Assembly: GCA_026392215.1 (NCBI GenBank) | Contig: JAPLCN010000152.1 | Span: 1-33,143 of the forward strand | Origin: Actinomycetota bacterium | GTDB lineage: Bacteria; Actinomycetota; Humimicrobiia; Humimicrobiales; Humimicrobiaceae | DNA length: 33,143 nucleotides | Reading direction: 5' to 3' | Shown: piece after piece, positions 11,426-12,549 of the stretch | Numbering within the stretch: position 1 is the stretch's first letter | Layout of the letters: each line of letters begins with the position of its first letter | Position numbers and translations under genes: made by a program | Notes under the pieces: generated by a model | The model's input: the letters and a program-made list of their open reading frames with translations, nothing else | The model's database searches: none | What the model was told of the DNA's origin: nothing

Positions 11426-11486
11426 GAAGCAGGAGAACCGTCCCTTTGTTTCTGCTGATGGAAGCAGGAGAACCGTCCCTTTGTTT
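11426..11486 (-). repeat. Two direct copies of a REP-like sequence (35-base period)
   Basis: Two identical 26-base units occupy 11426-11451 and 11461-11486, separated by 9 bases. The minus strand reads GGGACGGTTCTCCTGCTTC in each. The same core, with one or two changes, occurs twice near the start of valS (28406-28432 and 28528-28554). The sequence resembles short interspersed REP-like elements; the type and mobilising protein are not shown here. Confidence 0.8.
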
Positions 11487-11512
11487 TCTTTGCTTCTTTT
11501 AGCATTGAAAAC

Positions 11513-11565: not shown

Positions 11566-11823
11566 TTAAGCTTCTGAAATTACGTTAATTACTTTACCTT
11601 TTTTTGTGTTCTTGATGAACTCCAGAACACCGTCTGCCTTTGCAAACAAGGTAAAATCTTTGCCCATGCCAACATTGTTTCCTGGTCTGAATTTGGTTCC
11701 TCTTTGCCTAACTATAATATTGCCGGCTTTTATTATCTGGCCCCCGAACATCTTAACGCCTAAATATTTAGGGTTGCTGTCTCTGCCGTTTCTGGAGCTG
11801 CCGACACCTTTTTTACTTGACAT
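11566..11823 (-). CDS. rpmA: 50S ribosomal protein bL27
   Basis: Ribosomal protein whose N-terminus reaches the peptidyl-transferase centre. The 85-residue protein has [19 protein letters not shown] and the [19 protein letters not shown] segment typical of bL27. The N-terminus MSSKKG is short: there is no Prp-cleaved extension of the kind found in many Firmicutes, and no prp gene between rplU and rpmA. The start has a ribosome site (AGGGG, 8 bases away) and lies 14 bases after rplU. A hairpin terminator follows. Confidence 0.97.
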
Positions 11824-11837
11824 AATTTACCCCTTAA

Positions 11838-12155
11838 TTATTTTTTCACAGTTATCTTTTCAAGACTAAGTAAAGTCAAATTCTGCCTGTGCCCTACTTT
11901 TCTGTGATATCTTTTTTTAGCTTTGTATTTGTATGCAATAACCTTGTCGCCTCTGAACTGCTTTTTGATTGTTGCTTCCACTTCAACATTTTCAAGAACC
12001 GGTTTGCCGATTTCAACCTTACCGGCGTCACTAAAAAAGTTAACGTCAGTAATTCTGACTTTATCGCCTTCAATGCCATCTATTCGATCAATAACTATAT
12101 TAGTATTTTCTTCAACTTTATACTGCCTACCCCCGCTGGTAATTATCGCGTAAAT
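11838..12155 (-). CDS. rplU: 50S ribosomal protein bL21, apparently starting with ATT
   Basis: The minus strand encodes 105 residues beginning (M)YAIITSGGRQYKVEENTN and ending SLEKITVKK, a full-length bL21 with the conserved YKYKAKKRYHRKVGHRQ segment. At the position of the family's initiator Met (normally MYAII) the codon is ATT (12153-12155). Exactly six bases upstream lies GAGGAGG, an ideal ribosome site, and an in-frame TAG occurs just before it, so no other upstream start exists; there is also no internal ATG, GTG or TTG that would leave a usable protein. ATT initiation is known for infC, where it serves autoregulation. A base error is the alternative. It is the first gene of rplU-rpmA and is preceded by a long leader. 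Confidence 0.93.
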   Translation of the reverse strand: MYAIITSGGRQYKVEENTNIVIDRIDGIEGDKVRITDVNFFSDAGKVEIGKPVLENVEVEATIKKQFRGDKVIAYKYKAKKRYHRKVGHRQNLTLLSLEKITVKK

Positions 12156-12457
12156 TTTGGGCCTCCTCTAAAACATTAATTAAAATAAATTTCTAATGAG
12201 AATCTAAACTGAAACTCTTACACGACTAAAGTCAGCTGGTTCTTAGATACTGACTAGCTTTCGATATAAGCCAAAACTTATAACGACTAATTGGTTTCTC
12301 TAAGAATTTCACTATCAAAGATTCCATTTAAGTCTATTAACGATAGTATAACGCCCGTTTCAAGACGTTTTTATAAAAAGCCTTCATCTCCATCATTTTA
12401 AATAAAGAGCTTTCCCCATCATTTTAAATAAAGGGCTTTCGGCTAAAATATTATTGT
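12156..12457 (-). promoter_or_regulatory. Probable structured 5' leader of rplU
   Basis: About 300 bases separate the predicted start site from the rplU start and contain no gene. On the minus strand several paired elements are visible: TTCTTAGA pairs with TCTAAGAA some 50 bases later; inside lies TATAAG/CTTATA around a TTTTGG loop; and AGTCAG pairs with CTGACT overlapping the outer arm. This could be a leader bound by L21, as known for Firmicutes, but I cannot match it to a described family. The distal part holds a tandem repeat. Confidence 0.45.
12390..12440 (-). repeat. Tandem 26-base repeat in the rplU leader
   Basis: Two 25-base units at 12390-12414 and 12416-12440 differ at one position (plus strand: CCATCATTTTAAATAAAG then A/G then GCTTTC). 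They lie at the 5' end of the predicted rplU leader, and together with AGCC upstream and GGCTTTTT downstream could form alternative hairpins. Confidence 0.85.
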
Positions 12458-12463
12458 AAAAAC

Positions 12464-12491
12464 ATTTTACTGATTTTATTTTAAAAATCAA
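12464..12491 (-). promoter_or_regulatory. Possible promoter of the rplU-rpmA operon
   Basis: On the minus strand TTGATT (12486-12491) and TAAAAT (12464-12469) are 16 bases apart. The pair lies just beyond the terminator of the RNase gene, where a new promoter is needed. The region is AT-rich and the match is moderate. Confidence 0.35.
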
Positions 12492-12504
12492 CACATGACA
12501 TAAC

Positions 12505-12534
12505 AAAAAATGATATTAACATATTATCATTTTT
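12505..12534 (-). terminator. Likely intrinsic terminator of the RNase E/G operon
   Basis: Downstream of the RNase stop, the minus strand has AAAAATGATA, a nine-base loop and TATCATTTTT, a 10-bp AT-rich stem running into TTTTTTG. The stem is weak in GC, but position and U-run fit an end to the long cell-shape/RNA operon. Confidence 0.5.
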
Positions 12535-12549
12535 AATGTCAAACTAAAA

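Follow-up and report, generated by a model that had tools for sequence, protein, structure and literature searches.

The gene for ribosomal protein bL21, rplU, retains what reads as the very rare start codon AUU, and not AUG, across dozens of species in a class of uncultured Actinomycetota. The window, i.e., the whole stretch of 33,143 nucleotides that was analysed, comes from a draft genome (G000) of 2.15 Mb in 207 contigs, with a completeness of 96.5%. This genome belongs to the Candidatus Humimicrobium group. Its named near matches are Actinomycetota MAGs and Ca. Humimicrobium oleiphilum, and Ca. Humimicrobium is placed in the class Ca. Humimicrobiia by NCBI. To our knowledge, hardly any AUU starts are known apart from that of infC, and a literature search found no paper describing an AUU start in rplU.

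A previous sequence-only reading of this DNA had reported an ATT at the initiator position of rplU, 6 bases after GAGGAGG, with an in-frame stop upstream and no usable NUG codon. Direct reading of the sequence bore this out (Table 1). The minus strand around the start reads TTT TAG AGG AGG CCC AAA ATT TAC GCG ATA ATT, and the stop codon is located at 11838-11840 (minus strand). Reading in frame, no NUG is reached until a GTG 58 codons 3' of the ATT, within the protein, and rplU is the sole gene of the window without a usable NUG. The product matches Pfam family PF00829 with 105.7 bits (residues 2-101 on profile positions 2-99), and the isoleucine codon falls opposite Met1 in alignments with solved bL21 chains (3j3v chain R, for example, at 1-102 to 1-101). 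The gene was assigned to the bL21 family on this full-length match with an aligned initiator position, and to the genes with an AUH start on its non-NUG initiator, the lack of a usable NUG and a Shine-Dalgarno sequence at proper spacing.

Table 1. Features of the rplU region, in coordinates of the window
Feature	Position	Strand	Basis
rpmA (bL27), ordinary ATG behind AAGGGG	11566..11823	-	sequence, gene calls, profile match
rplU (bL21) coding sequence, AUU start to TAA stop	11838..12155	-	PF00829 match; Ile codon on Met1
ATT initiation codon of rplU	12153..12155	-	ATT in 35 and ATA in 1 of 37 class copies; 1 change on tree
Shine-Dalgarno sequence GAGGAGG of rplU, 6 bases from ATT	12162..12168	-	sequence; spacing 5-7 in all 36 AUU/AUA copies
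In-frame TAG close 5' of the rplU ATT	12168..12170	-	read from sequence
Repeat element in the rplU 5' UTR, window genome only	12200..12480	-	insertion in alignment with relatives
Putative promoter TTGACA-18-TAATAT	12513..12542	-	alignment; consensus matched by eye

The rplU gene was sought in 40 genomes of the class and located in 37. The initiator codon was ATT in 35 of the 37 copies and ATA in one (G018). The single exception, G035 of a second family, carries an ATG three codons 5' of the initiator position. The third family (f3, G036-G039) likewise has ATT, indicating that the AUU start predates the family of the window genome. Judged from these copies, rplU had its AUU no later than in the common ancestor of two of the families and has retained it since. 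Conservation among relatives, which the sequence-only reading had named as support for an AUU start, was thus observed, and an ATG at the position of 12153-12155 was not found in the class copies. All 36 copies with AUU or AUA carry, 5-7 bases upstream of this codon, a Shine-Dalgarno sequence matched over at least 5 bases. The conserved codon, the proper spacing of the Shine-Dalgarno sequence and the absence of other starts strongly support AUU as the functional start, and AUU is almost certainly the true start codon of rplU.

A start-pattern scan covered 396 genomes of the phylum. No AUH codon was found at the rplU initiator position in the about 356 sampled Actinomycetota genomes beyond the class, and the sole pattern match outside the class (G261) arose by chance and has in-frame stops. 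The rplU starts that were read directly in Actinomycetota outside the class were ATG in several cases, GTG in two and CTG in one, and rplU of distant phyla starts with ATG. In a genome from another family of the phylum (G043, locus L057), the codon at the initiator position of rplU is CTG, preceded by AGGAGG, which is a further non-standard start of L21. The conserved TAC GC that follows the start of rplU was discarded as a special feature, because it is also present in most rplU genes with an ATG start.

The codon appears to be under selection. On a quick tree built from the RplU, InfC, RuvB and RsmD proteins, with a small sample of Ile columns, the start codon of rplU changed once; at four conserved Ile codons within rplU, the third base changed 6, 10, 4 and 5 times. 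A start switch from AUG to AUU was recorded for 1 of 61,358 AUG starts, and AUG is normally favoured (PMC5622118). Since ATT is a single step from ATG and AUG is normally favoured, the fact that rplU has kept AUU speaks for purifying selection on its start.

An orthologue-pair survey of G014 (1.19 Mb) against partial sequence of G016, G024, G027 and the window genome showed few genes without a NUG in all members, namely prfB, infC, rsmD and rplU, together with some shadow or degraded frames. The presence of prfB is explained by its known in-frame-stop frameshift. The sequence-only reading had overlooked that rplU has company in its AUH start: infC, rsmD and, in part, ruvB form a small set with it.

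Like rplU in the same clade, rsmD has an AUH start, in 29 of 29 genomes of the window's family (G000-G034; ATT in 12, ATA in 9, ATC in 8 and ATG in none). In-frame stops are located close upstream in 28 of the 29, and the AUH starts are mostly behind GGTGAT (L240-L268). In contrast to rplU, rsmD swaps among AUU, AUC and AUA, with 8 such changes on the tree and none to ATG. The rsmD gene starts with ATG in f3, the other family with AUU in rplU, indicating that the AUH set is not strictly linked. The infC gene has no NUG start in the window's family, and AUU or AUA is found in most genera. In a group of infC copies mainly from genus g7 (L108, L109, L111-L113, L115, L120), neither a NUG nor a clear in-frame AUH at normal spacing was detected; these copies have TTT or TTC at the expected start place and an ATT one base out of frame. 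The apparent start of ruvB is ATT or ATA behind GGAGG in several genera and ATG in others; the loci concerned are L296, L306-L309, L314, L315 and, in G014, C2:90829. Three AUH candidates behind a Shine-Dalgarno-like sequence were seen in G014 only, in nadE (C5), infB (C2) and rpoD (C1), genes for which ATG is found or expected in homologues.

NUG candidate starts were found in 19 S10/spc ribosomal-protein genes of the window genome and in rpmA, rpmI and rplT. Across the genomes of G014 and G016, ATT, ATA or ATC behind a Shine-Dalgarno sequence of at least 6 bases occurred at background level, with no enrichment, indicating that there was no general change of start codon. No altered tRNA set was detected among the 30 tRNA loci read, which look ordinary. 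IF3 of the window genome is full-length and ordinary, with a PF05198 match and a match to solved IF3 at E 4.6e-44.

IF3 rejects non-NUG starts, and infC is autoregulated thereby, with ATT in E. coli and ATC in Streptomyces (PMC5472188). The GTC start of sigR in Streptomyces is repressed by IF3 (PMC5472188), and in vitro, initiation at AUU by the CAU anticodon is lowered by IF3 (PMC10158994). G966, the methylation target of RsmD, stacks on initiator-tRNA C34; loss of RsmD relaxes initiation (PMC7949028). The statement of the sequence-only reading that AUU initiation is well known only for infC is slightly too narrow given the non-NUG start of sigR under IF3 (PMC5472188).

From the observed codon, its conservation, its context and its companion genes, a response of rplU to IF3, with its size and its purpose, may be inferred. 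In the proposed mechanism, fMet-tRNA would initiate rplU at AUU, positioned by the strong Shine-Dalgarno sequence. With IF3 in excess this initiation would be rejected, and with IF3 scarce relative to 30S subunits it would rise; AUU would be retained because L21 synthesis is thereby IF3-sensitive. L21 would join one homeostatic loop with infC and, in the window's family, with rsmD, both of which have AUH starts, and the RsmD of this loop would methylate G966, next to the P-site initiator anticodon. The clade-wide AUU suggests that translation of rplU may be deliberately held under the proofreader IF3. IF3-linked control of rplU through its AUU start is given about an even chance. The sequence-only reading had extended such control to L21 and L27 together. 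It is plausible for L21, for which infC and sigR are precedents, but not direct for L27, whose gene rpmA has its own ATG. A wider arrangement would be an IF3-sensed initiation-fidelity regulon of infC, rsmD, rplU and partly ruvB, in which the IF3-to-30S ratio sets both how stringent initiation is and how much of a 50S protein is supplied, and so couples 50S assembly to the IF3 level; this is a tentative and rather unlikely extension.

The infC genes of E. coli and Streptomyces resemble rplU in having an AUH start behind a Shine-Dalgarno sequence that is conserved over wide distances. By the rule that IF3 rejects non-NUG starts (PMC5472188), both would be IF3-sensitive, in the case of rplU by analogy. 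In contrast to infC, rplU encodes a 50S protein and not the discriminating factor, so that rplU would stand on the output side of the loop and would not regulate itself. The rplU case is also confined to one class and nearly always AUU. The sigR gene of Streptomyces is likewise an actinobacterial gene other than infC with a non-NUG start. It has a strong Shine-Dalgarno sequence (AGGAGGTG in sigR) and a conserved codon (GTC in 32 of 34 and GTT in 2 in its genus) (PMC5472188), and, as with rplU, it is the first gene of a co-transcribed pair in which the second gene has a ribosome site of its own. However, sigR encodes a regulatory sigma factor and rplU a ribosomal protein, the codons are GTC and ATT, and repression by IF3 is experimentally shown for sigR and predicted for rplU. 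The AUU of rplU, kept through the radiation of the class alongside an AUH start in rsmD, may offer a natural, testable case of IF3-dependent control beyond infC and sigR. In practice, L21, RsmD and IF3 will be missed or truncated in genomes of this class by gene finders restricted to NUG starts.

The AUH set (infC, rsmD and partly ruvB) strengthens the idea of IF3 control and also opens the alternative of mere tolerance. In this main rival explanation, AUU is a true but fixed weak start in an AUH-tolerant lineage, by which L21 is tuned down or matched to L27 and for which the strong Shine-Dalgarno sequence compensates, with no regulation by IF3. The scattered AUH candidates in unrelated genes of single genera (ruvB, nadE, infB and perhaps rpoD) suggest such a wider tolerance, so control need not be the reason for the AUU start, and the free exchange of AUU, AUC and AUA in rsmD is in line with this. 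That a ribosomal protein made in bulk should have a weak start, for no obvious reason, also speaks against IF3 control. However, rplU is almost fixed at AUU although AUG is one base away, the other ribosomal-protein genes listed above use NUG, and AUH behind Shine-Dalgarno sequences is not enriched genome-wide. A fixed weak start is a serious explanation, with somewhat less than an even chance.

Translation from another codon upstream, with the Ile codon internal to an N-terminally extended L21, is very unlikely. An in-frame NUG does occur 4-7 codons upstream in 7 of the 36 AUU/AUA copies, but these NUGs lie within or before the Shine-Dalgarno sequence and are lost in sister species, even inside one genus. 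The remaining 29 copies, including that of the window, have no in-frame NUG before a stop within 12 codons upstream, and an upstream extension was rejected for them; in the window genome it is excluded by the in-frame TAG. The spacing between the Shine-Dalgarno sequence and the ATT, which is 5-7 everywhere, also argues against an upstream start.

The rplU gene is flanked by rng on one side and by rpmA-obgE on the other, with rpmA and obgE downstream. Leader-type autoregulation is known in ribosomal-protein operons, and an Rfam L21 leader exists for Firmicutes. Repression of rplU through a leader RNA, by L21 or another factor, with AUU merely weakening the start so that the repressor wins, would resemble these cases in the operon concerned and in the possible control of L21 synthesis. 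However, an Rfam search for leader RNAs, including the L21 leader, gave no match in the window region or in 12 loci, and simple folds of rplU from -40 to +40 showed no common structure. The 5' UTR of relatives is short and, in the alignment, unconserved apart from the Shine-Dalgarno sequence and the start, so that conservation here falls on the initiation site. The window copy moreover holds an inserted repeat. Leader repression is likewise very unlikely.

A sequencing or assembly error that turned an ATG into the ATT, as might be feared in a draft of 207 contigs, is refuted by the identical codon in 35 genomes, several of them from separately named public MAG records, and has a negligible probability.

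The putative promoter is kept in aligned relatives from the genus of the window genome and from a second genus. The repeat, which sits between the promoter and rplU, is absent from the aligned relatives, and at least 6 further partial copies with 80-94% identity are located elsewhere in the window genome; it is no part of the start-site feature of rplU. Downstream of rpmA, at 11430-11500 of the window, tandem ACAAAGGGACGGTTCTCCTGCTTCC units were observed, a motif known from the surroundings of REP-associated transposases.
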